IMG/VR virus record: IMGVR_UViG_3300009285_001091
Location: 1 to 23,043 of that record
Source of the DNA: a virus
Direction: 5' to 3' (one strand)
Length of the DNA: 23,043 nucleotides
Shown: positions 1 to 17,895 of the stretch, piece by piece
Numbering within the stretch: position 1 is the stretch's first letter
Layout: every line of letters begins with the position of its first letter
Notes under the pieces: generated by a model
The model's database searches: none
What the model saw: only the letters and a program-made list of their open reading frames with translations
Told to the model about the DNA's origin: nothing
Translations under genes and position numbers: made by a program

Positions 1-7
1 ATTACTT

Positions 8-667: not shown

Positions 668-747
668 AAATGTCTCCTTTCCTTCCCCTTATAATTAAAA
701 GGAGGCATTCCTTTATTCCAACTTGTAAAGCCTTTAATAAAAGTCAT
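664..747 (-). CDS. Tiny NUMOD3-like ORF, 27 residues
   Basis: This 27-residue ORF has a near-perfect ribosome site (AAAGGAGG, 5 bases before the ATG at 747). Its TGA overlaps the ATG of the jelly-roll gene, so it could be translationally coupled. The peptide contains FIKGFTSWNKG, which resembles the NUMOD3 motif (KGxxPWNKG) in the HNH endonuclease genes elsewhere in the window; the FIKGF core is also present in the endonuclease at 19172-19624. It may be a remnant of a homing-endonuclease gene or a leader that couples translation. Length alone makes it uncertain. Confidence 0.4.
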   Translation of the reverse strand: MTFIKGFTSWNKGMPPFNYKGKERRHL

Positions 748-799
748 CTAAACCTCCTTTAGCGGTAAGACCTCTGTCGAAGCCGCAATATTTCAACAT
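734..799 (-). CDS. Tiny ORF, 21 residues, with strong ribosome site
   Basis: This 21-residue ORF begins 12 bases after the stop of the GTV-repeat gene. A strong AAAGGAGG sits about 6 bases before its ATG at 799. Its 3' end overlaps the ribosome site and start of the next tiny ORF (664-747). The peptide is not recognisable. The two consecutive strong ribosome sites suggest real initiation here, but it could be a decayed reading frame. Confidence 0.3.
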   Translation of the reverse strand: MLKYCGFDRGLTAKGGLDDFY

Positions 800-811
800 A
801 ATAAGCCTCCT

Positions 812-1636
812 TTATCTCCAACTTACAGTAACATCGCATGCCGCCGCAGTCGTACTGGCAATCGTGATACCAGTCAAACATTTAACGTCATATAAATATG
901 TTCTTTCACCTGCACTAGCTTTCAGAGTTGCGACAGTTCCTGCCGCTGTTCCCACAGCGTCAAAAATTTCAATCGGTGCGGTTGCTAAAGTATTCACAGT
1001 CACGGCGTGTAAGAAACCTGCCGCAGATTTAATCGTTCCACTACCAATCGTGTAGTGAGAATAGCTTAACTGTTGTTCAGTTTTCATTACATCATTAGTT
1101 TGGTCTTCGCCTGAGATTAACGGATAAGCTGATAAAGTACCCACAGTTGCCGCAGTCACTACAATAGAACCGGCATTTAAGTTGCCAATAGTTCCGCCTT
1201 GTACAGACGTAACTGTTCCGGCATTTAACACACCAACCGTGCCGACAAATTTGGCAGTTCCCAGTAATTCTTGAGTTCCAGCTAAAATCGTAGTTACAGT
1301 TCCGGCAGTTACAGCAACTGAACCGGAGGCTAAATTACCAACTGTTCCACCTTCAATTTTAGTAATAGTCCCAGCGGCTAAGTTAGTAACTTTTGCCACA
1401 GTTCCTGAAACTAAAGTTGTAATCGTACCAACCGAAACAGAGAAAGTCTCAGCTCCGATTAGATCAACTTTAACGGCTGTTCCTCCAGAAGAAGTCCCGA
1501 TCGGCAGTCTTTCAAAGGATAAACCATCTTGTTCTAACGCTCCTATTTCAAGAGCATTAACTCCGGTCTTATCTTGACCTACTTCTCCAAAAGACGCATT
1601 CCAATAGTCTTGAGTAGATTTTTTTGTTTGAGCCAT
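812..1636 (-). CDS. GTV-repeat beta-structured virion protein
   Basis: This 274-residue protein is built in its middle from imperfect short repeats of the type GTV-x-x-L-x-x-GT or NL-x-(A/S)G(T/S), spanning roughly residues 65 to 170. This is typical of beta-helical or beta-prism phage head or tail decoration proteins. The flanks differ: the N-terminus carries a YWNASFGEVGQDKTG stretch, and the C-terminal 90 residues form a more globular beta domain ending in VTVSW. I chose the ATG at 1636 rather than the in-frame GTG at 1645, because GGAG lies only 1 base before the GTG but 10 bases before the ATG. It is followed by tiny ORFs and the jelly-roll gene. The virion role is inferred from composition and position. 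Confidence 0.75.
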   Translation of the reverse strand: MAQTKKSTQDYWNASFGEVGQDKTGVNALEIGALEQDGLSFERLPIGTSSGGTAVKVDLIGAETFSVSVGTITTLVSGTVAKVTNLAAGTITKIEGGTVGNLASGSVAVTAGTVTTILAGTQELLGTAKFVGTVGVLNAGTVTSVQGGTIGNLNAGSIVVTAATVGTLSAYPLISGEDQTNDVMKTEQQLSYSHYTIGSGTIKSAAGFLHAVTVNTLATAPIEIFDAVGTAAGTVATLKASAGERTYLYDVKCLTGITIASTTAAACDVTVSWR

Positions 1637-1641
1637 AATTC

Positions 1642-2865
1642 TCACGCTCCTTTCACTTCAGTATTTTTTAATGGTCCTAAAAGTTCAATTTGTAAACTCT
1701 CTAAAAATGGTATCCAAGTCTCACGACATCTTGTATTCATATCGTAATTCTTAACGATCCAATCTCTACAGGCTTTTTTAGTTTCTTCATCCCGGGCGTA
1801 TTTAAATACAGTTTCCATTTTCTCGTACAAAGAGTCCAAGTCCGGCTCGGCACTGTAAGTTTGTAGGTTAAGCCATTTCTTATAACTGTGTTTACAAATC
1901 TCGCCGGTTTTACTGGGGATGACTAATTCGGGCATGGAAGTCCAATCATTAACTATCACGGGAACCCCGACCCCCTGAGCTTCAGCTATGGGTAATCCAA
2001 ACCCCTCACCCGATGACGGATTTAATAAAACGTCAAAAGTATTCATAATCTTATTAATTACTGGGTGAGGCGACTTCATCATCATCTCGTAAGGCTGGGT
2101 AAAAAACACGCTATTATTTATCCCCAGATAGTTAGCATAATCTTGGATAGGAAAACCACCCGCTTGTTGTAGTAGAGTATGGAAGTACATTCCCGTCTTA
2201 ATATCTTTGTGATTTTCACTAAATCGTTTAAACGCATCCATACACTGTTGGAATGACTTGCGGGGCGGATTGTCTTTGTTGGCCGCCACCATACCCCAAA
2301 TAAAAGTATCTTGAGGTAAACCTAATTCTTTTCTGGCTTCCTGTTTATCCATAGGTTTAAACACCTCAGTATCAATCGCTTCTAAAATCAAAGTGCTTTG
2401 TAAACCTTTCCGTTTTAATGTTTCATAGCCAAATTTAGACAGGGAAATCAAACGGTAGGCTTTACTTAATCTTTGGTAATTAGGTAAAGACACATCCTCA
2501 AACTCAATCGGGATATAGGCAATCCAGTTTTTTAACTTAAATAGCATATTTGGGTCCATCGGCCAAGGGTTTTGAAAAGTAACCACGCAGTCGGCTTTGA
2601 AATCCTGCTGGTGATAAAACGCCGCATCAGTTCCCCAGGCCTCACCCATCTTTGGGTAGCATCTTAGACCATTAATGTTTATAATTCCTCCCTCAAGGCC
2701 GTAAAACGCACTCATTGCTACTTGCCAACCATCGTCTAAAAAACGGTAAAGTAAGTCACGGGATTGACAAGAATACCCTGAATTTGCCCATACAGAATTA
2801 CTCGACCATAATATACGTAATCGACGGTCTTTAGTTGTACCGTTTTCTGGTGTTTTTTCACTCAT
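1642..2865 (-). CDS. GT4-family glycosyltransferase (GT-B fold)
   Basis: This 407-residue glycosyltransferase is expected to transfer a sugar from an NDP-sugar with retention. The N-terminal half opens with RLRILWSSNSVWANSGY, the first strand and glycine-containing loop of GT-B enzymes. The C-terminal half carries SGEGFGLPIAE (residues 285-295), the E-x7-E signature with E287 and E295 that contacts the donor, followed by a PVIVND strand. No signal peptide or membrane segment is visible, so it should act in the cytoplasm. Its ATG overlaps the stop of the upstream GT8-like gene (ATGA, 2862-2865), with a GGGGGAAG ribosome site. It lies between virion structural genes, which suggests glycosylation of virion proteins; host-surface or DNA modification are alternatives. 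Confidence 0.88.
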   Translation of the reverse strand: MSEKTPENGTTKDRRLRILWSSNSVWANSGYSCQSRDLLYRFLDDGWQVAMSAFYGLEGGIININGLRCYPKMGEAWGTDAAFYHQQDFKADCVVTFQNPWPMDPNMLFKLKNWIAYIPIEFEDVSLPNYQRLSKAYRLISLSKFGYETLKRKGLQSTLILEAIDTEVFKPMDKQEARKELGLPQDTFIWGMVAANKDNPPRKSFQQCMDAFKRFSENHKDIKTGMYFHTLLQQAGGFPIQDYANYLGINNSVFFTQPYEMMMKSPHPVINKIMNTFDVLLNPSSGEGFGLPIAEAQGVGVPVIVNDWTSMPELVIPSKTGEICKHSYKKWLNLQTYSAEPDLDSLYEKMETVFKYARDEETKKACRDWIVKNYDMNTRCRETWIPFLESLQIELLGPLKNTEVKGA

Positions 2866-3593
2866 GCTTCCCCCACTAAATAATGTAATCTATCGGCAAC
2901 TTCTTTTGGAAAGGTAACGAAATAATTCATTTTTGGTGTCTGCCCACCTGCATAATGTAAAACCTTTATTTCCTTATCCTCTACTTGGAAAGGAAACCCG
3001 GCTTTGACGTACTCTTCGACGACCTCTTTAGGCATAATCACTTTGTTATCTTTTAGGACAGTCTTATCCCATCGACCCTTTGATATAAGACCATGCCACA
3101 TCGGGCCAAAATCCAAAGATTTAACTTTCATATCCCCATAATGGAACATGATATTTAACATATCCTGTTCTCTAAATTGGTATTTATCCCAATGAAGTGA
3201 AGTATTTAGGTTCGCCCACCAATCCCACGGTCTTTTACCCCTGACTGCTACAAACCCGGCATTGATATACAACTGACTTGGTGTATCCCACATTTGTAAT
3301 CTAGGATCAATCAGATTGTTATTCAGTACCCCGGCCACGTCATAAGACTCATCATTAATAATATGATCTAATGATCCCGTTACAATCGAATCATTATCTA
3401 TGTTAATCACCAGATCATATTCCTTAGCCAGTTGTTGCCCGTTCATAGCATAAACTCTAAAGTTATGGATTGCCTCAAACGGACGGATAATCAACGGAAT
3501 ATCGGGGTGAAACTTTTTAAGAGAGTTCGCCATCATTTTGGCGTATCTCATATTTTCCCCCTCACTGGCAATCGTAAAAAAACAAGTTTTCAT
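2862..3593 (-). CDS. GT8-like glycosyltransferase (GT-A fold)
   Basis: This 243-residue protein resembles GT-A nucleotide-sugar transferases of the GT8/glycogenin-like type. The first strand (KTCFFTIASEGENM) is followed by VINIDNDSIVTG, in which D66-N67-D68 is the metal-binding DxD. A later NAGFVAVRGKRPWDWW segment and a C-terminal VLHYAGG carrying a possible metal-binding His fit the same fold. The ATG has an AAGGGGA ribosome site 4-5 bases upstream. It is coupled to the GT4 gene by a 4-base overlap, so the pair probably acts together. No membrane segment is seen. Donor and acceptor cannot be told from sequence. Confidence 0.8.
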   Translation of the reverse strand: MKTCFFTIASEGENMRYAKMMANSLKKFHPDIPLIIRPFEAIHNFRVYAMNGQQLAKEYDLVINIDNDSIVTGSLDHIINDESYDVAGVLNNNLIDPRLQMWDTPSQLYINAGFVAVRGKRPWDWWANLNTSLHWDKYQFREQDMLNIMFHYGDMKVKSLDFGPMWHGLISKGRWDKTVLKDNKVIMPKEVVEEYVKAGFPFQVEDKEIKVLHYAGGQTPKMNYFVTFPKEVADRLHYLVGEA

Positions 3594-3621
3594 TTTTCCC
3601 CTTAATTTATAGGTTCTCCGA

Positions 3622-3640
3622 TCGGGCGGTTCACGCCCGA
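3622..3640 (-). repeat. GC-rich intergenic hairpin
   Basis: A 7-bp perfect stem (TCGGGCG / CGCCCGA) with a 5-base loop lies between the beta-helix gene and the GT8-like gene. No T-run follows on the minus strand, so it is not a standard intrinsic terminator. It could protect the mRNA 3' end or tune expression of the glycosyltransferases. Confidence 0.5.
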
Positions 3641-3649
3641 CCAGACAAA

Positions 3650-4714
3650 CTAGGTCTTAGTTACAATCAAGGCCGTGCCAGGAATGGCAATACCCGGATT
3701 TTGTAACAGGTTGTTGATCGTTCCACCCGCAAAGGATGGAGTAATCTTCACACCGTCACCTGTTCCAAAGTTCGTAACATTTACTCCCATACAGTCTTTA
3801 AAGAGATGATATGCCCCTACAGGCATCGAACCTCCAAGAACCATAGCCGGAGCAGTCCCACCAGCAGCAAAGACAAATTTACAGTCTTCAAAGGAAGCCG
3901 CTATTCCATTAGCAGTTCCTGCCCCCCCAGTAAACGGATGATCAGTAGTCGCATTCCCTGTTTTTAAGAAAGTACAGTTTTTAAACTCCCAACCTAACCC
4001 GCTTTGAGGCAATCGACACATTCCCATAGCCGAAGCCGTTTGAGTTCCAGCATTAACAAAGACGTTCTCAAACAACTGCTGACTCTTCGTGCTTCCCGCC
4101 ATAATTAAATGTGAAGGTGTTCCATCATCCCAAGCCGCACCCGTTCTTTCGATAGCCAGGTCGTGGAAATAATTACCATTGCTCGCAATAGTAATCAATC
4201 CCGCCGTACCACCGTCGGCTCCAACCGACCCCAATAAAGAGGTTCCGGCCGTTGCCAAGAGACGGAAACCAGCCACTTCACAACCATTGCCTGTGATGTT
4301 TAAAAATCCAGCAGTAGGTACAGTTGTCGTGTCTGAAGTTCCGAATCCCTGAAGGGTGTTTGAGTATCCGGTCCCATTCAATTTAGGATTGTAGCCCAAG
4401 CTGATAAGGTGAACCTTGTCCTGATTAAGAGTCAGCGCAGTTGTAATAGTCCAAGCTGAACCGTCTTTTTTAGGACAGACAAAAACATAGTCGTTCTCGT
4501 CAGATTTACATACAGCTAAGGCAGCAGCAATCGTGTCGAATAAATTATCCGCCCCGACCGAATCCTTAAATTCTAAATAGTCATTATCCGAAGGGTCTTT
4601 TACCCAATACACATTCCCGCTAGTCAATACACCAGCGTTTTTAATCTCCGAAATAGGATCAATTTTACCGCCTAAATGCCAGTAATTTGTTGATCCCGGT
4701 TTAATATTACTCAT
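3650..4714 (-). CDS. Parallel beta-helix virion protein (tailspike or decoration type)
   Basis: This 354-residue protein has the composition and turn pattern of a right-handed parallel beta-helix: repeated short strands separated by G/N/T-rich turns from about residue 75 to the end (for example GFLNITGNGCEVAGFRLLA, then NGNYFHDLAIER, then FENVFVNAG, then FKNCTFLKTG). The N-terminal 60 residues (WHLGGKIDPISEIKNAG) may form a virion-attachment or capping region. Such folds are used by phage tailspikes and head fibres to bind or cleave glycans, but I see no clear catalytic cluster. The ATG at 4714 follows AAAGGTGG and overlaps the end of a small basic ORF. It is followed by the two glycosyltransferase genes. 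Confidence 0.75.
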   Translation of the reverse strand: MSNIKPGSTNYWHLGGKIDPISEIKNAGVLTSGNVYWVKDPSDNDYLEFKDSVGADNLFDTIAAALAVCKSDENDYVFVCPKKDGSAWTITTALTLNQDKVHLISLGYNPKLNGTGYSNTLQGFGTSDTTTVPTAGFLNITGNGCEVAGFRLLATAGTSLLGSVGADGGTAGLITIASNGNYFHDLAIERTGAAWDDGTPSHLIMAGSTKSQQLFENVFVNAGTQTASAMGMCRLPQSGLGWEFKNCTFLKTGNATTDHPFTGGAGTANGIAASFEDCKFVFAAGGTAPAMVLGGSMPVGAYHLFKDCMGVNVTNFGTGDGVKITPSFAGGTINNLLQNPGIAIPGTALIVTKT

Positions 4715-4865
4715 TAATTACCACCACCTTTCCAGATTTATTTTTTAAGATAAATCGTCTAATAATTATTCTTTGCCTGGGGCTTAGTCCAACCTTTCGA
4801 CAAAGTTCATCGTAAGATATTCTAATGTCAAACTGTCTCTGTGCTCGCCGGTTTCTTCTCGGCAT
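4707..4865 (-). CDS. Small basic protein overlapping two neighbours (52 residues)
   Basis: This 52-residue ORF starts inside the 3' end of the upstream coiled-coil gene in another frame, continues through the apparent 113-base gap, and ends with a TAA overlapping the ATG of the beta-helix gene. The peptide is very basic (starts MPRRNRRAQRQF) and has a helix-rich middle (SYDELCRKVGLSPRQRIIIRR) that could form a small helix-turn-helix-like unit. It exactly fills the gap with tight junctions on both sides. Against it, no good ribosome site is seen, and its first part overlaps a longer gene. I do not recognise a family. Confidence 0.4.
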   Translation of the reverse strand: MPRRNRRAQRQFDIRISYDELCRKVGLSPRQRIIIRRFILKNKSGKVVVINE

Positions 4866-5277
4866 AATGTTTTATCTTATAAGTTTTCCCCTCGGTTGCT
4901 ACCTTTTCCAGCTTTTTATGGAAAACTTTTTGTTTATGCCTTTCTTCTTCACTCTTAATCAGCATTTCCTGCTGCCGAGCAAGCATATTTTGTATATTTT
5001 GACCTCTCAAGTGAGCCAATTCCTGTTTACTAAAATATGCCTCGATTGAACGGCTCCTACTCGCTCCTCCCATACCGCATAGATAAGTAGCGGCGGCATC
5101 TGTCCGCTCTCTCAAAGCATCGGTAAACTCGGACATTTTCTTGGCCCGGTTCTTCTCATACTTTTTTATTGTATTGTTAATGATCCAGCGATTCTTTGAT
5201 ACACTAAAACCCGGTTCTGGTTTATCAGGCCAGAACTTACGGTCTAACGGATCAAAATCACCAATTTGCATCGTCAT
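4828..5277 (-). CDS. Basic coiled-coil protein of unknown function
   Basis: This 149-residue protein lies directly downstream of the major capsid gene, after the structured intergenic segment. Residues 1-25 include DPLDRKFWPDKPEPGF; most of the rest is highly charged, with Lys/Arg/Glu/Gln heptad-like stretches (about 35-60 and 85-135) suggesting long helices or coiled coils. It has a GMGGASRSRS glycine-serine hinge near the middle. Position would suit a head-completion or internal virion protein, but I do not recognise a family. The start is uncertain: no Shine-Dalgarno precedes the ATG at 5277 or the nearby ATG at 5271, and the upstream bases form the GC stem of the adjacent hairpin. Confidence 0.65.
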   Translation of the reverse strand: MTMQIGDFDPLDRKFWPDKPEPGFSVSKNRWIINNTIKKYEKNRAKKMSEFTDALRERTDAAATYLCGMGGASRSRSIEAYFSKQELAHLRGQNIQNMLARQQEMLIKSEEERHKQKVFHKKLEKVATEGKTYKIKHYAEKKPASTETV

Positions 5278-5283
5278 ATCTGG

Positions 5284-5492
5284 CGGGGCGGTTGAAGGTT
5301 AATAAACCTTGATTATTGCCCCGTTGCTGGCTGTAAACAGCCACCCCGTCAGGTATGATGTGGGAGCAAGAAGTAATGAGCTTCAAGCGAGTGAAAAGTT
5401 TCACTCTGCTCCCGTATCGCAGTTTATTTTGAGGTATCGGCTAGATTTATTTGTTTCCTCTAACTTTTCCTCTCATAGATGTAAAACTGCGA
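5284..5492 (-). ncRNA. Candidate structured RNA between capsid gene and next gene
   Basis: This 228-base gap holds at least four separate inverted-repeat elements. (a) 5417-5425 with 5484-5492 form a 9-bp stem (TCGCAGTTT / AAACTGCGA). (b) 5362-5368 with 5407-5413 form a 7-bp stem (GGGAGCA / TGCTCCC) enclosing two hairpins: 5370-5373 with 5381-5384, and 5389-5395 with 5400-5406 (GAGTGAA / TTCACTC), giving a three-way junction. (c) 5328-5333 with 5338-5343 form TGGCTG / CAGCCA with a 4-base loop. (d) 5284-5289 with 5318-5323 form CGGGGC / GCCCCG, enclosing AAGGTT / AACCTT (5295-5300 with 5305-5310). No T-runs follow, so these are not simple terminators. Strand is assigned from the flanking genes. 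It could be a 5' leader for the coiled-coil gene, a processed RNA or a packaging or recombination site. Confidence 0.5.
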
Positions 5493-5505
5493 CCTAAAAC
5501 CACCT

Positions 5506-6765
5506 TTAATCAGTCTTACGTGTTTCCTTTCCATTAGCAGCCGGACAGAGACACAACAGATTGGTAAACCAAACCATCGTGGCCTGATAGGTAATGTAGT
5601 TGACTTTTCTGACTAAACCACCACCGTCAGGGTTCTCCAACCAATCAAGGTCAGAAACCTGACAGACAGTAAAGGTATCGAGATTAACGATTAGAACCTC
5701 ACCATCCGGGCAGTCGTAGTCTAAAAAGACGCCAACTTTCCCTGCTCCTGCAGCAAATTCAAGGCCAGTCCAACCACCGAGTAAATCAGTCTGGTTAACA
5801 GCCCGTCTCATCGAGGTTAATATGTCGCCATATTTCTTAAAAAGAGATTTGTTAACGAAGATTGCATACCGATCGCCGGTCTGGGCGTATTTCTTAGCAG
5901 CCAAGTAACTATCTTCCATTCTGGACAAAGATAGAGCCTCGCTCGTAGATCCGAACTGGGAAGCCATAAACTGTGTAGCACGAGTTGTGCCAGCATATGT
6001 AGAGGTTCCACCAATATCGGAAGCTAAAGCATCGGCCAATCCGCCAATTTCCAAAGTACCTGCCGCATTTCCGTCAGCGTCCGTTGTATAAACCGGAGCG
6101 TTGGCAGCCCGAGAAATATCCGCATTGTAGTAAATCGTGTTAGTCGAAGTCGTTACTGTTCCAATAGTTCCAACGGAACCTGAAGCAGAACCTCCGGTAA
6201 CAGCCATGCCTACATTGATATACTCTGTCGGAGAAATATCACCATTAATGGTACCGTATCGATCTTTGACACGGCCATCAACAGCCAATCCATCTGCGTC
6301 TAGTAATTCTACGGTTCCCCGAGAAGAACTAGCAGTACCTGCAAATTGAGCGATAGCACCTGAACCATCACCAAAATACATCCTATTCACGTTTTTCGAG
6401 AAGTCTGAAGCTAAACTTTTAGCCTGGGCTGTAAGTTGAGACTCAACAGCACCTTTAGCGGTTTTGGTCGCATCGATCGTCAGTTTACTGATGTCGAACG
6501 TACCAGTTAAAATTTTCACTCCAACGTTTAACTGAGCATAAGCTGCCTTACCCGAAACTAACTGCGCAGTATCGCTACCCAAGATACCAACACCACCATG
6601 CCGCCTACTTCTGATAGGAGCATAGAAAGCATCATTCATAAAGGTAACACCTGTATTCCGTTTGATCTGATCCAAAAGAATCGTCGCAGTCGGAAAGTTG
6701 TCCCGAATATAAGGCATAATAACTTTTTGCAAAGTATTTGAAACGTCGCTTAAAGCAATTGCCAT
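5506..6765 (-). CDS. Major capsid protein (HK97-like fold expected)
   Basis: This 419-residue protein forms the head shell. It sits directly after the scaffold gene, as expected. The N-terminal arm (MAIALSDVSNTLQKVIMPYI) leads into DQIKRNTGVTFMNDAFYAPIR and HGGVGILG, then a helix-rich segment with NVNRMYFGDGSGAIAQFAGTA, typical of phage major capsid proteins with the E-loop and spine-helix order. The C-terminal third (DILTSMRRAVNQTDLLGGWTG followed by a VFLDYDCPDGEVLIVN strand) resembles the P- and A-domain closure. The end is a cysteine-bearing tail. It starts at the ATG at 6765 with only a weak ribosome site (GGTG). The assignment rests on order, size and motif style. Confidence 0.85.
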   Translation of the reverse strand: MAIALSDVSNTLQKVIMPYIRDNFPTATILLDQIKRNTGVTFMNDAFYAPIRSRRHGGVGILGSDTAQLVSGKAAYAQLNVGVKILTGTFDISKLTIDATKTAKGAVESQLTAQAKSLASDFSKNVNRMYFGDGSGAIAQFAGTASSSRGTVELLDADGLAVDGRVKDRYGTINGDISPTEYINVGMAVTGGSASGSVGTIGTVTTSTNTIYYNADISRAANAPVYTTDADGNAAGTLEIGGLADALASDIGGTSTYAGTTRATQFMASQFGSTSEALSLSRMEDSYLAAKKYAQTGDRYAIFVNKSLFKKYGDILTSMRRAVNQTDLLGGWTGLEFAAGAGKVGVFLDYDCPDGEVLIVNLDTFTVCQVSDLDWLENPDGGGLVRKVNYITYQATMVWFTNLLCLCPAANGKETRKTD

Positions 6766-6797
6766 TTAATTATTCACCAACTTTCAAAAGTTCAAAT

Positions 6798-7478
6798 TTA
6801 TACTTGTCCTTGATTAAGACTTTCATTAACCATTTTGTCTAAATTATCAGCGGTTATTCTAACCTCTGACGGTTCTTTTCTACTACCACCTCTAGTTTCA
6901 GTCATCAAACCTGATGGCTTCTTTTTAGACAACTCGGCTTCTTTCCAGGCATCAAGTTCTTTTTCAAACTTGAGTTTATAGGCTGATTCGGAGTTTTTAA
7001 CCCCGTTTTCTTTCATATACTTAAGCATTTCCTCTGTCTTGAAAGCCGGGCGGCCATCTTTACCATCAATCTTGCGTTCTAACTTATCACAGGATTTTAA
7101 TAAATCACGGCCCTGTTCCCGCAAAGACAGTTTATCTTCTAAATACTTGTCTAGATCGGCTTGGGTCACGATCCCCAACTTACGGGCTTGATCTTGAACT
7201 TGATCTAAAGATAATTCTCCCTCTTCAGGTTTAATCTCTGACTTGGGTTTTTTAGCCTCTTCTAATTCGGCTTTGAGTTTGCCAATCTCTTCACCCCGTT
7301 TACCCCAAGATGAGGTCAAGCCATCAAAATCGGTTCCTGACTTTTTCTCAAAGTCTCTCACTTTCCCGGCGAAACCGACCATTTCCTGCAACTCTTCAGG
7401 CTTGTACTCCTGCTCGCCGATCTTAATAACTTCCGGCTCTACTGGAGCCTCTACTTTTGGCTCAATTTTTTGAGTCAT
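6798..7478 (-). CDS. Capsid scaffolding protein
   Basis: This 226-residue protein is strongly charged and helical: EELQEMVGFAGKVRDFEKK, then EEIGKLKAELEEAKKPKSE, with acidic Pro-rich linkers and no hydrophobic core of an enzyme. This is the usual look of a phage scaffold, which templates head assembly and is then lost. It lies between portal and major capsid genes. I place the start at the ATG at 7478, which has AAAGGAA 4-5 bases upstream; the longer frame back to 7541 would begin at a TTG inside the terminator stem and is not credible. It is the first gene after the second promoter/leader/terminator unit. Confidence 0.85.
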   Translation of the reverse strand: MTQKIEPKVEAPVEPEVIKIGEQEYKPEELQEMVGFAGKVRDFEKKSGTDFDGLTSSWGKRGEEIGKLKAELEEAKKPKSEIKPEEGELSLDQVQDQARKLGIVTQADLDKYLEDKLSLREQGRDLLKSCDKLERKIDGKDGRPAFKTEEMLKYMKENGVKNSESAYKLKFEKELDAWKEAELSKKKPSGLMTETRGGSRKEPSEVRITADNLDKMVNESLNQGQV

Positions 7479-7563
7479 AAGTTCCTTTCTGGAGGTCGCC
7501 CTTTTGGGAACCCGCCAAATATAATAAAAAAAGACACTCAATCGAGTGCCTTCTAATTTGCAT
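7462..7563 (-). CDS. Possible leader peptide through the terminator, capsid operon
   Basis: This 33-residue frame starts 30 bases downstream of the -10 box. It begins MQIRRH, runs through the terminator hairpin and ends inside the scaffold gene. The equivalent frame in the packaging-operon unit begins MWIRGH at the same distance from its promoter. An AGAGG lies 8 bases before the ATG. It may be a translated leader controlling termination; the resemblance could also come from DNA or RNA constraints. Confidence 0.3.
   Translation of the reverse strand: MQIRRHSIECLFLLYLAGSQKGDLQKGTYDSKN
7526..7550 (-). terminator. Intrinsic terminator in leader of capsid operon
   Basis: On the minus strand GGCACTC, loop GATT, then GAGTGTC (7 bp with one G-T pair) is followed by seven T residues (7532-7526). 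It lies about 36 bases downstream of the expected transcript start and upstream of the scaffold gene, so it would act as an attenuator of that promoter or end the upstream operon. Confidence 0.8.
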
Positions 7564-7592
7564 TCACGCCGCCTCTTTGTGTGCGGTAACTT

Positions 7593-7621
7593 ATATTAAA
7601 CTTTTATTATTTGCTTGTCAA
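7593..7621 (-). promoter_or_regulatory. Sigma-70-type promoter for scaffold/capsid operon
   Basis: A consensus TTGACA (7621-7616), a 17-base spacer and TAATAT (7598-7593) read on the minus strand. The -35 box overlaps the stop of the small Lys/Met-rich gene. The same arrangement with identical spacing occurs at 12444-12472. Confidence 0.8.
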
Positions 7622-7725
7622 CTTTTACCCTTTTTCATTTTTATAGCCATTTCGACCACTTTTTTATTCTTTTTCATTCTCTTATCCATAGTTTCCTTAA
7701 CCATCATCATTTCTTTGGTTTTCAT
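7618..7725 (-). CDS. Lys/Met-rich 35-residue peptide after portal
   Basis: This 35-residue ORF has an excellent ribosome site (AAGGAG, 6 bases before the ATG at 7725) lying in the last codons of the portal gene, which stops 2 bases earlier. The peptide contains about twelve Lys and eight Met and almost no other bulky residues, for example MKTKEMMMVKETMDKRMKKN, so it should be a single basic helix, possibly nucleic-acid or membrane binding. A longer in-frame extension to 7827 overlaps portal and is rejected. The stop codon forms part of the next promoter's -35 box. No family is recognised. Confidence 0.5.
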   Translation of the reverse strand: MKTKEMMMVKETMDKRMKKNKKVVEMAIKMKKGKS

Positions 7726-7726
7726 A

Positions 7727-9790
7727 TTAGGCTCCTTTTTTATACTTGGTTTTAATTTGAATGGTTTTCTTCTGGCCGTCTTTGCCGGACTCAACCTTGT
7801 CAATCCGCTCGATCTCTTCAGCTTCATCTACCTTTTCAGGTTCTTTTGGTTTGTCGAATAAACCGGCCTTTTTAGCATCAGCTAACGCTTCAATCGAACC
7901 GGCCTTAGTAATGGCTAAATGCTTCTCTTCATCAGGATCAAACAAACCGGCTTGTTTCAAGTCTTTCATAGCCTCGACTACGGCCAGTTTAATATCCTGA
8001 CGCTGTTTATCGCCCAGCTCCTCATTAGTTAAGCCGTCTAACGACTCCATCATTTCAGAACTCGGCCCGAACTTAAACACTTCAATTAATTGCATAATCA
8101 CCAATTTGATCGTCTCCGGTGGTAGAACGCCCAGTTTGGCCAACTCAATCATAAAGTTAGCAATCTCCATCATCCGGCCTTTTTTACCCTCTTCGGTGTA
8201 GCCTAAACCCGACTCGATGGTTATATCCACCTTGTAGTCTTTTTTAATTGGGACTACGCCCTCGAGTTTGTCGGCCTCGTCAATTCCCTGTCTGGCTTCA
8301 ACCCCAGCTTGACCAATGATGTCAAAATAAGCCGGTTCGCCTTTGTCTAACCGCATAACTGTCTGTTTGTTAATAAAGTGGTTATCGGCAATATCCAGCA
8401 TTTTCTCGCTGATACGCTGGATACACTTTTTAAGCTGCTTAATCGCCACAAACAGATTGGAAAACTCCGATGCCTTTAAGCTCTCAATTGCTCCCCAGGC
8501 CTTAACCCCTTTAGGCAATTGTCCTAAAGCAGACGTGGTCACGCCCTGTTCCTCAATAAACGAGTTCAAAAGATTAATAAACTGGAACGTTGAAGCTGGA
8601 AGTCCAGCCATTGGTACCTGTTGAGGAGGAGTTGTATCGTATTCGGCCATCAACCCACCGGCCACGTTGCTTATCTGAAAATTTTCACCCTTACGTTTTG
8701 TCCAAACGCCCACGTTCATTGTATGAATCATTCGCTCAATTCTTGACATAACGCTGTCTAATGACTTGTTCGAGGGGATAAACCGCTCAATCTGGGCCAC
8801 GCCGTATAATGCCCCCGGTTCAAGTCTTAAATCTACAAACGGATAGTCAGGTAAATTAGTATATTCGTCTCTTAACCAAATATCCCCGGCTACAAACACC
8901 TGACGGACAATTGGGTCGCCTTTTTTCTTATTGGCTAAAATCTGACCGGCGTTCTTTTGATCTCTAATTCTGGGTAGATTTTCTTCGTTGATATACTCCT
9001 TCAAAAACGCTTCCTTTAACAGTAAAGTGGCTGCCGAGTCCGAACCAACACCGGCTTTGCCAAACTTACTGATTAAATACGCTTCCTTAATCTCGTCACT
9101 GGCGTATCTCGAATCAGGGGTAATCTTGTCTAACTGCTTCTGATCAAAGTTTTCATTGGCTTTAATCTCACGAATTAATTTAGGTACTGACTTAATGATA
9201 AACGGAGAGTCATAAATCGAGGTTACGTTGTTCATTACATAAATATCGAAAGCGTCATAAACTTGAGTTCTGATAGCTTCCTCCAACGCATCCGGCCAAA
9301 TCTGAATATACGAGATGTAGTTTTTCATGGTCAGTAACAACATCTCACTCAACTTGATATCCAAATCTTGATTTTTCCACTCTTCCTCTAACCAATAGCC
9401 AACCTTTTTAGCGGTTACTTTGGCCGATTGTAGAGTTTGTTGATACTCCTGCGGGTCGTTGTAACTATACCGATTAACCTTATCCGGTCTAATCTGCGGG
9501 ATAAAATCCTGAGATAAGATTAAATTAACCATACCTCTAATCTGCCGTGAAGCCTTGGGGATTGACCTACGGGGTGAGTACAAAGTCGCTCTATTGCTTA
9601 AATCCATAATCCTACCCGTTGTCCTTGAGATTGACCGAAGATGATGGCCGTCATCAAAGAAGTTGTTGTTATACCAATTCCTGGCGTATGGTTTACGGGT
9701 GTTATTCGCCAAAGTCATCATGTTATCGACTTCTTTACCGATGTCCATTGTCTCAATGTTACTAGTGTCTCGTTCTATTCTATCGGCCAT
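7727..9790 (-). CDS. Portal protein
   Basis: This 687-residue protein forms the dodecameric portal through which DNA enters the head. The N-terminus has ARNWYNNNFFDDGHHLRS, then PRRSIPKASRQIRGMVNLIL, a helix typical of portal wing regions. The middle contains LDSVMSRIERMIHTMNVGVW and a FINLLNSFIEEQGVTTSALG segment matching the stem/clip boundary of portal proteins. The C-terminal 150 residues are charged and helical (barrel-like), ending in a Lys-rich tail. It follows the large terminase, with two small genes between, and precedes scaffold and capsid, the canonical order. The ATG has GAGGAAATA upstream and overlaps the previous stop by one base (TAATG). Confidence 0.9.
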   Translation of the reverse strand: MADRIERDTSNIETMDIGKEVDNMMTLANNTRKPYARNWYNNNFFDDGHHLRSISRTTGRIMDLSNRATLYSPRRSIPKASRQIRGMVNLILSQDFIPQIRPDKVNRYSYNDPQEYQQTLQSAKVTAKKVGYWLEEEWKNQDLDIKLSEMLLLTMKNYISYIQIWPDALEEAIRTQVYDAFDIYVMNNVTSIYDSPFIIKSVPKLIREIKANENFDQKQLDKITPDSRYASDEIKEAYLISKFGKAGVGSDSAATLLLKEAFLKEYINEENLPRIRDQKNAGQILANKKKGDPIVRQVFVAGDIWLRDEYTNLPDYPFVDLRLEPGALYGVAQIERFIPSNKSLDSVMSRIERMIHTMNVGVWTKRKGENFQISNVAGGLMAEYDTTPPQQVPMAGLPASTFQFINLLNSFIEEQGVTTSALGQLPKGVKAWGAIESLKASEFSNLFVAIKQLKKCIQRISEKMLDIADNHFINKQTVMRLDKGEPAYFDIIGQAGVEARQGIDEADKLEGVVPIKKDYKVDITIESGLGYTEEGKKGRMMEIANFMIELAKLGVLPPETIKLVIMQLIEVFKFGPSSEMMESLDGLTNEELGDKQRQDIKLAVVEAMKDLKQAGLFDPDEEKHLAITKAGSIEALADAKKAGLFDKPKEPEKVDEAEEIERIDKVESGKDGQKKTIQIKTKYKKGA

Positions 9791-10071
9791 TATTTCCTCA
9801 ATTTCCTTTTAATAAATTCTTTGATCTTTTCACCCGCCAGTTCACGGCCGACTTCTTTGAGTATAGCTTTATCAAACTCCTCCGGAGTAGCTTCGCTTAG
9901 AGGAATGGCTTCGAGTTTTTCAACATATGGCTTACCCTGTTTCTCCGGTACATTATTCAATTCGGTTAAGTCTTTAGCCATAAACGCATCACTTAACCTC
10001 CGGCGTTCCTTGCGGTTCATGTAGTCCTGATAAGCTATGTAAGCTATTAAGGTAAAAATAATATAAATCAT
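9790..10071 (-). CDS. Small protein with N-terminal membrane segment
   Basis: This 93-residue protein starts with MIYIIFTLIAYIAYQ, one hydrophobic segment, followed by NRKERRR, which by the positive-inside rule would put the C-terminal 75 residues in the cytoplasm. The rest is charged and helical (PEEFDKAILKEVGRELAG) with a basic C-terminus. I chose the ATG at 10071 (AAGGGAA upstream) over the longer frame from 10101, which overlaps the previous gene. It ends on the portal start codon. Function is unknown; location between terminase and portal suggests a head or host-membrane accessory role. Confidence 0.65.
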   Translation of the reverse strand: MIYIIFTLIAYIAYQDYMNRKERRRLSDAFMAKDLTELNNVPEKQGKPYVEKLEAIPLSEATPEEFDKAILKEVGRELAGEKIKEFIKRKLRK

Positions 10072-10073
10072 AA

Positions 10074-10241
10074 TTATTCCCTTAAAAGTGTTTCTAACCA
10101 CTTTCTCGCTCCATATTTATTAATTAACTCTACATTTTCTATTAACCACTTCTCTTCAATATCTGAAAAAGAGGTTTTGAGTGAAGATGTTTTTACATCA
10201 TAATCTTTTGGCATCTTCGCTGTTTCAATAATATCTTTCAT
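10074..10241 (-). CDS. Small hypothetical protein (55 residues)
   Basis: This 55-residue acidic-to-neutral protein contains FSDIEEKWLIENVELINKYG and KWLETLLRE, suggesting a small helical fold. Start at the ATG at 10241 is supported by GGGAGGG and by an ATGA overlap with the stop of the preceding gene. The next gene begins 2 bases upstream of its stop. No family is recognised. Confidence 0.6.
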   Translation of the reverse strand: MKDIIETAKMPKDYDVKTSSLKTSFSDIEEKWLIENVELINKYGARKWLETLLRE

Positions 10242-10654
10242 AATCCCTCCCGCCAAGGATTCGGCGTATTAAATTGGGTCACTTTATACCAACAAAAATC
10301 CTGGTGTTCCAACCACGGATAAAACTTATCTAGTACCCTAACTCTTACTGGTACGTCTTTAACCATTAGGCACATTGAGCCATCGGTCAGTTCAAACCCC
10401 CAACTAGCTAAAAACCCCTTAACCTCACGGGTTAGGTTCTTAGACTGAACTCCTAAATCAATAAACTTACCTCTTACCTCGCCATCCTCCTTAATACTAC
10501 GCAAAGTCTCTCCCATTAAGAAGAATTTACACATCGCTTGCTCAAAGTAACGCTCTGCCTCAAATAAAGCGTTTTCTAAATCAGGAGTAGTTACTGGTAC
10601 TTTAACTGCTTTATTCGCCGTAGTCCTGAAGAATGTCCGTTTCTTTTTCTTCAT
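10238..10654 (-). CDS. Hypothetical protein adjoining large terminase (138 residues)
   Basis: This 138-residue protein begins with a basic tail (MKKKKRTFFRTTANKAVK). A helical stretch with LENALFEAERYFEQAMCKFF follows, then a beta-rich C-terminal part with DGSMCLMVKDVPVRVRVLD and several Trp. Its ATG has GGGAGG 6 bases upstream, and its first 44 bases overlap the 3' end of the terminase gene. No known motif is visible. Position fits a packaging accessory or head-neck protein, but that is inference only. Confidence 0.65.
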   Translation of the reverse strand: MKKKKRTFFRTTANKAVKVPVTTPDLENALFEAERYFEQAMCKFFLMGETLRSIKEDGEVRGKFIDLGVQSKNLTREVKGFLASWGFELTDGSMCLMVKDVPVRVRVLDKFYPWLEHQDFCWYKVTQFNTPNPWREGL

Positions 10655-12065
10655 TGCCTACCTCCCACTTTCTTGCTAATTGATGAAATCGTCTGCTTAA
10701 CATGGTTACTGGTTTCTTTTGAAGAAACTCTGGTTTGACCGGACGGGACATGAAAAAGTATTTGTCCCGGTCAAAGCAGTGATCCTCCCCGTCAGTATCG
10801 ACATCCTCTACCCGCACTTTATCATAAACAAGCGATGGTATTGTTCTGGCAGTATCGTAACAACTTGAAAATACCTGGTACCAAGGTTTGCCGTCCGGCG
10901 CAATACTTAATACCTCTCGATACCTGGCTAAACCATTCTCCCGGTTATTATCGCCTCTGACCATTCTTAAACCCTCTTTTATCATAATCTCAGCGTACGA
11001 TTGCCCCTCAGTTATATCAGTCGGCTTGCCTAATAAAATCTTATTCCACATACTTGGATCAGCCACACAGTATTCGTAAGTCTCAACCGCTTTCTTGCTA
11101 ATACCTAAAATGACCCTAGCCAACCGGCTGGCAGTTAATGGTTTCCCAAAAGTATTTAAAAACCCGTTTGAGTTCATATATAACTCTCGGTAAAGATAAG
11201 TCCGGCCATCAAAGTCTTGGGCATACCAACCAACAGAAAAAGGTTTATTCGATCCCCAGTCCATCGCTATCCAGCGTTTCCAATCATCGGGGATCTTAAA
11301 GGGCTTGACCACGTGAGTTGCGGTACTCCACTCGTCAAAGACTTGACCCTCGAATACGTCCCAGCTGCCCTCCAACCAGGCTTTGCGCTTAGCCGTAGGC
11401 AAAGATTTAAGCGTATCTATATATCCCTGTTCGGTAAACTTATTATCGTACACATTGGCCGGGATATAGGTATATTTGGCTTGCTCGACATCGAGATGGT
11501 TAGGATCGGGAGCGATCCATAGTTTCTTTACCCATGAGTGGCCCACCTGACCGGGGTTAGTTGCCCCAACGAATTTGGGATCGTGGATGCCCGGATACCT
11601 TAATCTAAACTTCAAATCTTCAAACGTCTCTAGAGGGTTCTTCGTCAACTCCTCAACTAACTCGGCCGCAAACTCAGTCGAAGCGTATTTTGATGGGTCA
11701 TCTAGGTTACGAAGCAGAATAATAAAAGAGCCATATTTCTCATTAGCCTTAAATACCAAACCTTCGTCCCGTGTCTCCCGAACCTCACCCAGCCACTTGG
11801 GGAACTCGGCTTTAATCTTAACGACTTGCCTATCCTTGAGCGTCGGGTAATCCTCGGAGAATAACCCAATGGGAACATTTTTAATCTGATACTTCATTGT
11901 GTAGTAAAGTCCTAATCCAACCGCTGCCCATCTTAAAAAGTAAGATTTGCCACCATGAGCCGCCCCTCCATATAGAAGATATTTACACTGATTGTCAAAG
12001 AGCGAATTAAACGCCAGTAACTGTTTCGGTTGAAACTTCGCTAGATCTACGAACTCCTGGTCCAT
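10611..12065 (-). CDS. Terminase large subunit
   Basis: This 484-residue protein is the ATP-driven DNA packaging motor and headful/cos nuclease. Residues 33-41 are GGAAHGGKS, a Walker A motif. FAAELVEEL (about 132-140) is the Walker B/catalytic glutamate region, followed by TNPG (169-172), the coupling motif III. The C-terminal RNase H-like nuclease has AMDWGS with D269 and a second acidic site in CVADPSMW (about 345). Length is typical. It overlaps the small-terminase-like gene by 59 bases and has no obvious ribosome site, so coupling to the upstream gene is likely. Confidence 0.95.
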   Translation of the reverse strand: MDQEFVDLAKFQPKQLLAFNSLFDNQCKYLLYGGAAHGGKSYFLRWAAVGLGLYYTMKYQIKNVPIGLFSEDYPTLKDRQVVKIKAEFPKWLGEVRETRDEGLVFKANEKYGSFIILLRNLDDPSKYASTEFAAELVEELTKNPLETFEDLKFRLRYPGIHDPKFVGATNPGQVGHSWVKKLWIAPDPNHLDVEQAKYTYIPANVYDNKFTEQGYIDTLKSLPTAKRKAWLEGSWDVFEGQVFDEWSTATHVVKPFKIPDDWKRWIAMDWGSNKPFSVGWYAQDFDGRTYLYRELYMNSNGFLNTFGKPLTASRLARVILGISKKAVETYEYCVADPSMWNKILLGKPTDITEGQSYAEIMIKEGLRMVRGDNNRENGLARYREVLSIAPDGKPWYQVFSSCYDTARTIPSLVYDKVRVEDVDTDGEDHCFDRDKYFFMSRPVKPEFLQKKPVTMLSRRFHQLARKWEVGNEEKETDILQDYGE

Positions 12066-12345
12066 TTTGGTTTAGTGTGAGTTTAATTAATATCGGCTCT
12101 TCTTTATCCCCCTCTAGTTTCATCGTCTGTGCCGGCATCCCGTCCATGTATTGCCAGAGCATTTTTATTGCGGTTACATCGCCTTGAAGCGCCTTTGATA
12201 ATATTTTATTCCCCAAAGCTTGTTTGATCTCAGGCTTGGCCTTAAGCATTGCCTTGATCGTTTCAGTAATTGAATAACCCTTTAGTGGTCGACCATTTGG
12301 GTTTCCCGACTCACCTGGTTTCCATGAAGTTTTTACTTTAGGCAT
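12007..12345 (-). CDS. Small-terminase-like DNA-binding protein
   Basis: This 112-residue protein opens with SWKPGESGNPNGRP, the signature of the DUF5681-type N-terminal domain often found directly before large terminases. A helical segment follows (ITETIKAMLKAKPEIKQALGNKI) and a KALQGDVTAIKMLWQYMDG helix pair. It precedes and overlaps the large terminase, so it is most likely the small terminase that recognises phage DNA. The last 19 codons are shared in another frame with the terminase start. No strong Shine-Dalgarno precedes the ATG; the leader with its terminator lies just upstream. Confidence 0.75.
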   Translation of the reverse strand: MPKVKTSWKPGESGNPNGRPLKGYSITETIKAMLKAKPEIKQALGNKILSKALQGDVTAIKMLWQYMDGMPAQTMKLEGDKEEPILIKLTLNQNGPGVRRSSEVSTETVTGV

Positions 12346-12351
12346 AGCGTG

Positions 12352-12414
12352 TTAATTGTCTGTTTCATAAATAAAAAAAGACATGATATTTAAACCATGT
12401 CCTCTAATCCACAT
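12352..12414 (-). CDS. Possible leader peptide through the terminator, packaging operon
   Basis: This 20-residue frame starts 30 bases downstream of the -10 box, begins MWIRGH, reads through the terminator hairpin and stops 6 bases before the small-terminase ATG. Its counterpart at 7462-7563 begins MQIRRH at the same distance. The ribosome site is weak. It may be a leader whose translation influences the hairpin. Confidence 0.3.
   Translation of the reverse strand: MWIRGHGLNIMSFFIYETDN
12373..12402 (-). terminator. Intrinsic terminator in leader of packaging operon
   Basis: On the minus strand GACATG (12401-12396) pairs with CATGTC (12385-12380), extended by a G-T pair, around a 10-base loop, followed by seven T residues (12379-12373). 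It lies between a strong promoter and the small terminase gene, so it is either an attenuator or the end of the upstream sugar operon. Confidence 0.75.
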
Positions 12415-12443
12415 GAATGCCAGCTATCTAATCTGGTAAATGT

Positions 12444-12472
12444 ATATTAAACCTTTTTATTTTCATTGTCAA
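12444..12472 (-). promoter_or_regulatory. Sigma-70-type promoter for packaging operon
   Basis: TTGACA (12472-12467), a 17-base spacer and TAATAT (12449-12444) on the minus strand. The promoter overlaps the last codons of the 57-residue gene, whose TAA stop is part of the -10 box. Spacing to the leader ATG and to the ATTAGA before the hairpin is the same as in the unit at 7593-7621. Confidence 0.8.
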
Positions 12473-12620
12473 ATGTTACCCAAACTTCTATTAAATTACT
12501 TAGCGTGGATAACTCATCAATATCATTCGGGCTTAGGCTTTCTAATACCACCCGACAGCTTTTATCTCCCGATACCAAAGTTTTGACATTTACTTCTTTG
12601 ATTAACATTAGTTTTTTCAC
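12447..12620 (-). CDS. Small GTG-start protein (57 residues)
   Basis: This 57-residue protein starts with GTG at 12620, preceded by an ideal AAAGGAGA with a 4-base gap. The GTG overlaps the TGA of the sugar dehydratase gene (GTGA), so the two are coupled. The sequence looks like a compact alpha/beta piece (LMLIKEVNVKTLVSGDKS, then LESLSPNDIDELSTL, then IEVWVTFDNEN) and recalls small phage proteins of unknown function. It ends inside the next promoter. I recognise no family. Confidence 0.65.
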   Translation of the reverse strand: MKKLMLIKEVNVKTLVSGDKSCRVVLESLSPNDIDELSTLSNLIEVWVTFDNENKKV

Positions 12621-13741
12621 AAAATCTCCTTTAAGGTTTTAGCTATATAGTTCATGTTTTTAATTGTTAGGTGCGGTCCCACTCCCACAAAGACGCTTTC
12701 GTTAAATAATCTGTCGCTGTTTTTTAAATCCCCGCAAGCTCTATACTTCAAATTTCTGTACGCCGGGTGCCGTAATATGTTACCGCTAAAGATTGTCCTA
12801 ACCCCTATCCCTGCTTGAAAGAGTTTAATCATCACCTCTTGCTTACGCTTAGTTAAGAAAGGAAAGCAGAAAGGATTGATACCAGAGTCTATTTTAGACA
12901 TACCCGTAGCTTCGTATAAAATCTTATAGTTTCTTTTGCGTTTGGCCACAAACCCATCTAGCCTTTTGATCTGTTCCCTGCCGAACGCCGCTTGCATCTC
13001 GGTCAGTTTAAAATTCAATCCTAATCCAATGTAATAATATCTATGATCAAATTTAGGATTAGAAAATCTGTTCCCACAAGCCGGATCGGGTCCGCCATAT
13101 CTACAAAAACAAGCCCTGCCCCAATCCCTAATCATTAAGCATCTTCTGTACAGACTATAATCATCCGTTACAATTGCCCCGCCCTCGCCACCTGTGGTCA
13201 TTAGGTGGGCCGGGTAACAGGATAAAGTAGCCATATCTCCATAAGTACCGGCCCGCTTGCCATTCTGTTCCGAGGCTAACGCATCACAGCAATCTTCAAT
13301 AAACTTTAGATTATATTTCTTAACAAAGCTCATCACTCTATCCATGTCTGGCATTCTACCTAACGTATGGGCAAACATTACCGCTCTGGTTTTATTCGTA
13401 ACTGTCGCTTGATCGATATCAATACAGAATGTATCTAAATCAATATCCACAAATACAGGCTTAAGATGTAAATAGATCATCGGGTTGATTGTGGTCGGAA
13501 ACGCTCCTCCGGCGGCGGTGATAACTTCTGACCCCTCGGGTAATTGTAACGCTTGAGTGGCAATAAAGTTAGCACTCGAGCCACTATTAGTACTAACACA
13601 GTATTTCCTTCCCCACCACCGAGCTAGTTCGTCCTCGAACAAGGCTGTTTCTTTATGCCCTGATAACCAGCGGCTTTTTAAGACCCGCTGGACTGCATCT
13701 ATCTCGGGTTTGCCGTAAATCGCCTCATTGAATTGAAGCAT
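12617..13741 (-). CDS. RfbH/E1-like NDP-4-keto-6-deoxyhexose 3-dehydratase
   Basis: This 374-residue protein has the DegT/DnrJ/EryC1 aspartate-aminotransferase fold: STNSGSSAN for cofactor phosphate binding, EDCCDALASE (149-158) for the cofactor ring, and SCYPAHLMTTGGEGG. In ordinary sugar aminotransferases that last motif carries the PLP lysine; here the position is H179. This is the hallmark of the PMP-dependent 3-dehydratases (E1/AscC, DdhC, RfbH; also ColD). Cysteines C152, C211, C213 and C222 follow the C-x(58)-C-x-C-x(8)-C order, close to the C-x(57)-C-x-C-x(7)-C that holds a [2Fe-2S] cluster in E1. It should remove the C3 hydroxyl of an NDP-4-keto-6-deoxysugar with a partner reductase, which I do not see here. 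Ribosome site AAAGGA; overlaps the SDR gene by 17 bases. Confidence 0.85.
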   Translation of the reverse strand: MLQFNEAIYGKPEIDAVQRVLKSRWLSGHKETALFEDELARWWGRKYCVSTNSGSSANFIATQALQLPEGSEVITAAGGAFPTTINPMIYLHLKPVFVDIDLDTFCIDIDQATVTNKTRAVMFAHTLGRMPDMDRVMSFVKKYNLKFIEDCCDALASEQNGKRAGTYGDMATLSCYPAHLMTTGGEGGAIVTDDYSLYRRCLMIRDWGRACFCRYGGPDPACGNRFSNPKFDHRYYYIGLGLNFKLTEMQAAFGREQIKRLDGFVAKRKRNYKILYEATGMSKIDSGINPFCFPFLTKRKQEVMIKLFQAGIGVRTIFSGNILRHPAYRNLKYRACGDLKNSDRLFNESVFVGVGPHLTIKNMNYIAKTLKEIL

Positions 13742-14528
13742 AAAATTCCTTTAATTTATTTAATGACTCCTTAAACGGCGTGTAAACTATACCAGTTTCT
13801 TCTCTAACCCGGGTATCGTCACAAGTATACTCCTGACCTTGACCACCCAATACCACTCGGTACTTACCTATCTGTTTAGCGATATTCTTTAGAGTAATTT
13901 GATGACCGCCAACATTGTAAAATTTCTCCTTAGGCTTATGCTCGATAAAATATTCTATAATCCTGACTAAATCGTTTACCCAAACGTAACTAAACTTACT
14001 GTCTCTAAAAATCGTTACAGGCAACCCTTTATTGTGGTCTAAAATCGCCTTAGAGATAAACCGCCGGTTCACGTTCTCATGCTTACCAAATATCCCAAAC
14101 GGCCTCAAGCAAATTATATTCTCTCTAAACTCTATTTGTTTAGAAATATAGTATTTACCCAATCCATAAGAGTCAAACGGTTTCCTGTCAAAATCTTCAG
14201 TAACATTTTTAATCGGTAAGGAGTGATCGTACTCCGCCCCCGAGCCTATCTGAATTAATTTACCCGAGTATAAATGAGTCATATTAATAAACGCCTGTAA
14301 ATTATCCTCACAATTAACACAATTAATCACCACGTCCACGTCATTCATCGCCGGTATCTCCCTCTCGATGTCTACCCGGCTATGTTCTGGCGTGATCCAG
14401 GTGTACTGTGGTAGCTGTTCGAGTAAATTCCTGCCAAGAAACCCTGATGCTCCCCACAGGAGGACTCGTTTTCTTGAAACAAACAACTTCTCGACAATCG
14501 CCGCAGACGACGGCAAAGTTATTGGCAT
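13725..14528 (-). CDS. Extended SDR sugar reductase/epimerase
   Basis: This 267-residue protein is an NAD(P)-dependent short-chain dehydrogenase acting on a nucleotide sugar. The dinucleotide loop is GASGFLG (residues 26-32 region), the active site has GSGAEY and YGLGK (YxxxK), and LRPFGIFGKHENVNRRFI matches the SDRs that accompany RfbH-type dehydratases in O-antigen clusters. Those enzymes reduce the 4-keto group of 3,6-dideoxy sugars or, in YerF, the keto group of the branched chain. It is coupled to the dehydratase. The first 25 residues overlap the zinc-ribbon gene and do not look like the fold; a TTG codon just before KLFVSRKR could be the real start. Confidence 0.8.
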   Translation of the reverse strand: MPITLPSSAAIVEKLFVSRKRVLLWGASGFLGRNLLEQLPQYTWITPEHSRVDIEREIPAMNDVDVVINCVNCEDNLQAFINMTHLYSGKLIQIGSGAEYDHSLPIKNVTEDFDRKPFDSYGLGKYYISKQIEFRENIICLRPFGIFGKHENVNRRFISKAILDHNKGLPVTIFRDSKFSYVWVNDLVRIIEYFIEHKPKEKFYNVGGHQITLKNIAKQIGKYRVVLGGQGQEYTCDDTRVREETGIVYTPFKESLNKLKEFYASIQ

Positions 14529-14667
14529 AAACTATGGTTTGTCCTTTATGAAACCGCTTAATTATTATTCCTTGTTCGATTATTTCGCCGAGGACGTTGA
14601 TTTTGCCCTGTTTGAGACAGACGGGGCAGTAAACAAGTCGCTTGGCCTTAGCAGGATTTGTGTACAT
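14380..14667 (-). CDS. Zinc-ribbon protein overlapping both neighbours
   Basis: This 95-residue protein has two Cys pairs, YCPVC near the N-terminus and VCGDC near residue 56, separated by short strands (NVLGEIIEQGIIIKRFHKG). This is a typical zinc ribbon of the kind phages encode in small genes. The first 88 bases overlap the ThDP enzyme's 3' end and the last 149 bases overlap the SDR gene, all in different frames. The functional part seems to be residues 10-70; the C-terminal 25 residues may be shadow sequence of the SDR. It could bind nucleic acid or a protein partner. No reason is visible for its place in a sugar operon. Confidence 0.6.
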   Translation of the reverse strand: MYTNPAKAKRLVYCPVCLKQGKINVLGEIIEQGIIIKRFHKGQTIVYANNFAVVCGDCREVVCFKKTSPPVGSIRVSWQEFTRTATTVHLDHART

Positions 14668-17884: not shown

Positions 17885-17895
17885 ATCTTAAATAT

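Follow-up and report, generated by a model that had tools for sequence, protein, structure and literature searches.

Late gene expression in tailed phages is known to be switched mostly by promoters or by processive antitermination from one site. In the pR'/6S RNA/tR' region of lambda, which depends on Q, the late promoter is followed directly by a terminator that has to be read through. In the RAT antiterminators of the BglG/LicT type, which serve sugar-use operons, a protein-stabilised hairpin overlaps a terminator. The two-hairpin antiterminators that are targets of ANTAR proteins (EutV, NasR, and AmiR) have hexanucleotide loops with A at position 1 and G at position 4 (PMC3369931), and the loading of Q at the lambda late promoter has been summarised (PMC9378689).

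Here, we analysed a window of 23,043 nt (positions 1 to 23,043 of IMG/VR record IMGVR_UViG_3300009285_001091). The minus strand of this 23-kb uncultivated virus record carries nearly all of its genes, including those for the large terminase, the portal, a scaffold-position protein, and the major capsid protein. Two units lie on that strand, unit A ahead of the scaffold and capsid genes and unit B ahead of the small-terminase-position gene and the terminase. The earlier note on this DNA had described both as promoter-leader-terminator units; they are real, and the spacings that it gave hold to within a base, with 35 nt from the -10 box to ATTAGA and 29 nt from the -10 box to ATG in each. Our analysis adds the upstream hairpin H1 and the overlap between a second hairpin, H2, and the terminator. 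The features are as follows.

7593 to 7621, minus strand: unit A promoter, TTGACA-N17-TAATAT (-35 box at 7621-7616, -10 box at 7598-7593)
7569 to 7586, minus strand: unit A hairpin H1, CCGC-ACACAAAGAG-GCGG, with compensatory changes in its core pairs across copies
7544 to 7565, minus strand: unit A hairpin H2, predicted antiterminator, GAAUGC-AAAUUAGAAG-GCACUC, with one A.C mismatch
7526 to 7554, minus strand: unit A intrinsic terminator, AGAAGGCACUC-GAUU-GAGUGUCUUUU and a U-tract (T7 end at 7526)
6798 to 7478, minus strand: scaffold-position protein (226 aa), first gene behind unit A, between the portal and capsid genes
5506 to 6765, minus strand: major capsid protein (phrog_14242, E 5.7e-22)
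12444 to 12472, minus strand: unit B promoter, TTGACA-N17-TAATAT (-35 box at 12472-12467, -10 box at 12449-12444)
12420 to 12436, minus strand: unit B hairpin H1, CCAG-AUUAGAUAG-CUGG
12396 to 12415, minus strand: unit B hairpin H2, predicted antiterminator, CAUGU-GGAUUAGAGG-ACAUG
12373 to 12405, minus strand: unit B intrinsic terminator, AGAGGACAUG-loop-CAUGUCUUUU and a U-tract (T7 end at 12373)
12007 to 12345, minus strand: small-terminase-position gene (112 aa), first behind unit B (phrog_26239, a PHROG with no assigned function)
10611 to 12065, minus strand: large terminase (phrog_2, E 2.7e-29)

In unit A, the 3' arm of H2 is the 5' arm of the terminator, and ATTAGA lies at 7557-7552 on the minus strand (12408-12403 in unit B). 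Within the record, TTGACA-N17-TAATAT occurs only at units A and B; the combined unit pattern had no match in 100 dinucleotide shuffles, and the only strong terminators on the minus strand of window positions 1-20000 are those of the two units.

The scaffold-position gene was found in all 21 contigs compared and has its own ribosome site, AGAAAGGAACTT; its protein has no PHROG match and is identified by position only. There is no Shine-Dalgarno sequence near the ATG of the small-terminase-position gene. Among cultured phages, the sole relative is Microbacterium phage Shocker, through a major capsid protein that is 29% identical; the element is absent from the 25 kb around the Shocker capsid gene, and no GenBank phage convincingly resembles a unit at the DNA level. 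A host search, uninformative because it was run without a positive control, gave no capsid relative among 380 Patescibacteria genomes or among 6 others.

Several other genes were observed in the record and its relatives. A glycosyltransferase gene (phrog_2170; window 1642-2865) lies within the late operon and is conserved in 20 of the 21 contigs compared; it suggests virion or host-surface sugar decoration. Genes for SIS, HAD-like, GHMP kinase, and nucleotidyltransferase proteins occur together at window 19503-21737 and in relatives (clusters c22, c23, c27, and c31), a set that resembles a phage-borne GDP-heptose pathway, the pathway name being suggested by the domains. At window 14580-17183, a thiamine-diphosphate enzyme spread across two adjacent frames and an HMGL/DmpG-type aldolase stand beside an epimerase and an aminotransferase, and relatives have apparent split transketolase genes near this position. 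A mosaic HTH and HNH gene type is present at window 17171-17884 and in 14 contigs, at many differing positions, as homing endonucleases are. In one relative, a tRNA-Asn gene directly adjoins the large terminase gene (L092:7527-7599; G022:27527-27599).

We propose that each unit is probably a promoter joined to a cis-acting attenuator leader RNA that is OFF by default and is switched by a late factor. Host RNA polymerase would initiate at the sigma70-type promoter, H1 would form, and one 5' arm would then choose between two mutually exclusive folds. In the default fold, a strong terminator would end the transcript at about 70 nt; in the alternative fold, the weak H2, drawn from the linker ahead of ATTAGA, would block terminator formation. 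A putative late-infection factor would recognise H1 and H2, probably via two conserved A/G-rich loops, and by stabilising H2 it would admit polymerase to the late operon. A minority of copies differ: there, H1 and H2 may compete instead with a hairpin masking the start codon. The promoter, H1, H2, the terminator, their exclusivity, the late-operon positions, and the two output types can all be read from the sequence.

The two units had been taken as a duplication; there is no local duplication, and about 30 IMG/VR contigs have copies in front of late operons. Relatives were gathered via their terminase and capsid proteins, and a scan for a promoter plus a T-tailed hairpin found a layout like that of units A and B in many of them; others came from searching IMG/VR with a DNA pattern. 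The earlier note had named a lack of further copies or of conservation in related genomes as grounds for refutation; we collected 70 copies from one uncultivated phage family, which are not phylogenetically independent (e.g., G003/G004). They head late operons (terminase, scaffold-position gene, and other late genes), and orthologous operon heads in different phages bear the element, including those of the small-terminase-position gene, the scaffold-position gene, and later late-gene heads; it was not found at early-region promoters of near-complete relatives. A typical copy opens with a sigma70-type promoter and H1, continues through a linker to AGARG, which is almost invariant, and closes with a hairpin and its U-tract. 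A covariance model, R1, which covers H1 through the 5' arm and leaves out the promoter and terminator, found several copies per contig in 28 whole viral records, with all 40 copies scoring at least 20 bits on the late-gene strand; another 72 loci, fetched by portal and capsid alignments, gave 26 hits, all on that strand. Rfam 15 gave no gathering-score match in the window (the best, unrelated, scored 24.8 bits over unit A against a threshold of 43) and no match in six relative loci. We call these leaders a candidate for a previously undescribed RNA family of the attenuator kind. In 84,980 genomes of bacteria and archaea, the DNA pattern had 49 hits; these were put down to chance, since on inspection they had neither H1 nor the overlap.

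A promoter with at most 2 mismatches of 12 is present, correctly spaced, in 49 of 62 copies, compared with 0.3% of random positions; seed copies were picked with a promoter, and 14 of a set of 22 nonseed copies are at this level. The spacing is 17 in 45 of the 62. A separate observation concerns mRNAs that we read as leaderless because the ATG lies just 6 to 9 nt past the -10 box (30 cases versus 2 in reversed sequences), for example at G007:6447, G007:7291, G023:12100, G023:20417, and the G024 minus-strand promoter at 21628; two such promoters stand in place of the element at genes whose orthologues have it.

The seed alignment of 20 units was chosen without regard to H2. H1 has 4 to 5 bp whose sequence varies freely while pairing stays, and a 9-nt A-rich loop, AYAAWANRG, with CA or CG next in most copies. 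Each of the four core pairs is formed in 40 or 41 of 41 copies, with three to five pair types; no shuffle of 500 matched this, and every slid version failed. A pseudoknot joining the ATTAGA tail to the loop of H1 was dropped on inspection, as it matches just a few copies. The differing stems of units A and B are explained by covariation across an RNA family rather than by drift from a recent duplication, and because stems differ in every copy, the trans-acting short RNA that had been suggested is unlikely. The same pairing bears on a model with DNA-based loading of a phage protein at a pause close to the promoter, the terminator being simply its first target, as for lambda Q at pR'. A late promoter running directly into a terminator recalls pR'; however, the conserved and compensated feature here is RNA pairing (H1 and H2) downstream of +1, some copies mask a start codon, and the early genes scanned show no Q homologue, so that we regard this model as quite improbable.

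Between H1 and ATTAGA lies the linker, which is complementary to the terminator 5' arm (unit B, CAUGU/ACAUG; unit A, GAAUGC/GCACUC with one mismatch). The resulting H2, with a loop of approximately GAAUUAGAAG, and the terminator are mutually exclusive. Across 70 copies, the summed hairpin energy of H2 is -223, versus -105 +/- 12 for permuted arms, and none of 5,000 permutations reached the native value; nor did any in a permutation of 50 copies, and in the 20 seed copies permuted pairs matched native ones in 6 of 5,000. A reversed-linker control gave -164, intermediate between native and permuted, which indicates that composition explains part of the signal; we rely on arm swaps restricted to the same contig, where the count was 0 of 5,000. 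H2 alone is weak (median, -3.1 kcal/mol) and by simple folding is poor or absent in a few copies (L226_9130, L222_10074, and G011_c16). A terminator with a U-tract was called between promoter and first gene in 58 of 70 copies, and some of the others have U-runs missed by the filter. That nearly all copies pair a strong promoter with a terminator would suit fixed, non-switching cassettes for short-RNA production or operon insulation, but such cassettes predict neither the linker-arm complementarity (0/5,000 permutations) nor the start-codon variants, and a guide RNA would need conserved stems, whereas these vary; we find this explanation hardly credible.

The copies at G022:18678, G022:11202, G026:5229, G009:3045, G027:28824, and L226:1907 have no U-tract, and the start codon of each lies within or directly beside the hairpin competing with H2; in G008, a terminator is formed with the H1 3' arm instead. 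Since some copies swap the U-tract for a start-codon hairpin, one H1-H2 module appears to serve either termination or start-codon masking. Because H1 or H2 is shut out by the competing structure in all variant copies, we infer that H1 with H2 is the ON state; binding of a trans-acting factor and late timing are predicted as well. A single module with exchangeable termination and start-codon platforms is also the classic layout of a small-molecule riboswitch, in which H1 and H2 would form an aptamer whose ligand, a metabolite or ion, shifts during infection. The short, sequence-free stems with conserved terminal loops look more like a protein site than a ligand pocket, however, and the genes controlled are virion genes; a riboswitch proper is in our judgment distinctly unlikely.

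The earlier note had also pointed to a leader frame, M-x-I-R-x-H. Its ATG starts neither gene, the start positions being 7478 for the capsid-operon gene and 12345 for that behind unit B, and in most relatives the ATG is missing there (e.g., CAAACGATTATTAGAGG in G010 and CAAGCGTCTATTAGAGG in G024) while RNA pairing is kept. A short open reading frame, or a ribosome at the Shine-Dalgarno-like AGARG, might still govern the terminator: both window copies have the ATG, AGAAGG is Shine-Dalgarno-like, and in several copies the gene AUG follows the U-tract with no other such site. This is very improbable given the relatives that have neither ATG nor peptide, an AGARG far more invariant than ribosome binding requires, and scaffold-position genes that have their own Shine-Dalgarno sequence. 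At G024:11019, G015:22945, G004:28439, and G027:7344, the U-tract directly abuts the gene AUG with no Shine-Dalgarno sequence nearby; AGARG could act as one there if the hairpin bridges the gap. Of the interpretation originally offered, the leader peptide is rejected, the short RNA is unlikely, and conserved attenuation or antitermination of late genes is supported by phylogenetic conservation, covariation, operon positions, and mutually exclusive hairpins.

Clustering with blastp/phmmer found no early regulator gene conserved across the element-bearing contigs. The ANTAR domain (PF03861) was found in 0 of 19 phage contigs, a count that applies to possibly incomplete contigs and to phage-encoded proteins, and comparison of early genes with Pfam and PHROGs gave HNH, NinG, YopX, lysin, and HTH families, with no known antitermination type among the families listed. 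That no conserved phage regulator was found would agree with H1 and H2 binding RNA polymerase in cis and rendering it terminator resistant without a trans factor, as in HK022; put RNAs are about 70 nt with two stem-loops, and putL lies just past its promoter (PMC9378689). Against this, H2 shares an arm with the adjacent terminator, copies with a start-codon hairpin and no terminator are not explained by processive antitermination, and that strand of window positions 1-20000 has no further strong terminator to read through, which makes local readthrough simpler than a long-range effect; we consider put-like action unlikely.

The attenuator reading that we prefer may extend to the whole family. 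It is possible, at somewhat under even chances, that these phages run their late programme by riboswitch-like leaders of virion operons rather than by a late sigma factor, an activator, or Q, with a two-hairpin module and a terminator or start-codon-masking platform read by a putative, possibly host-encoded, late factor. If so, a regulon of attenuator leaders acting in parallel, with outputs that can be exchanged, would solve late control in another way and would point to an RNA-binding regulator new to science. The element also gives this uncultivated phage group a strong sequence tag of its late operons.

Like ANTAR targets, the phage leader has two small hairpins in tandem, whose terminal loops are conserved and whose stems are free to change, the second overlapping the 5' side of a terminator. 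Unlike the ANTAR hexanucleotides, its loops are mostly 9 nt in H1 and about 8 to 12 nt in H2, with another consensus, and its hairpins are a few nucleotides apart rather than 5 to 12 nt (PMC3369931); because two defining features fail, we do not file it under ANTAR RNAs. Compared by layout alone, BglG/LicT systems have a single RAT hairpin with internal loops, whereas the phage leader has two hairpins. HK022 put (PMC9378689) likewise has two stem-loops in the RNA just downstream of a promoter; however, put serves early operons and acts on polymerase itself over long distances, while the phage leader serves late operons, shares an arm with a local terminator, and has start-codon variants. Lambda pR' has one site per genome and a DNA-loaded Q, whereas here there are several per genome, with a folded RNA that is conserved. 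Neither HK022 put nor lambda Q accounts for both output types of the leader.
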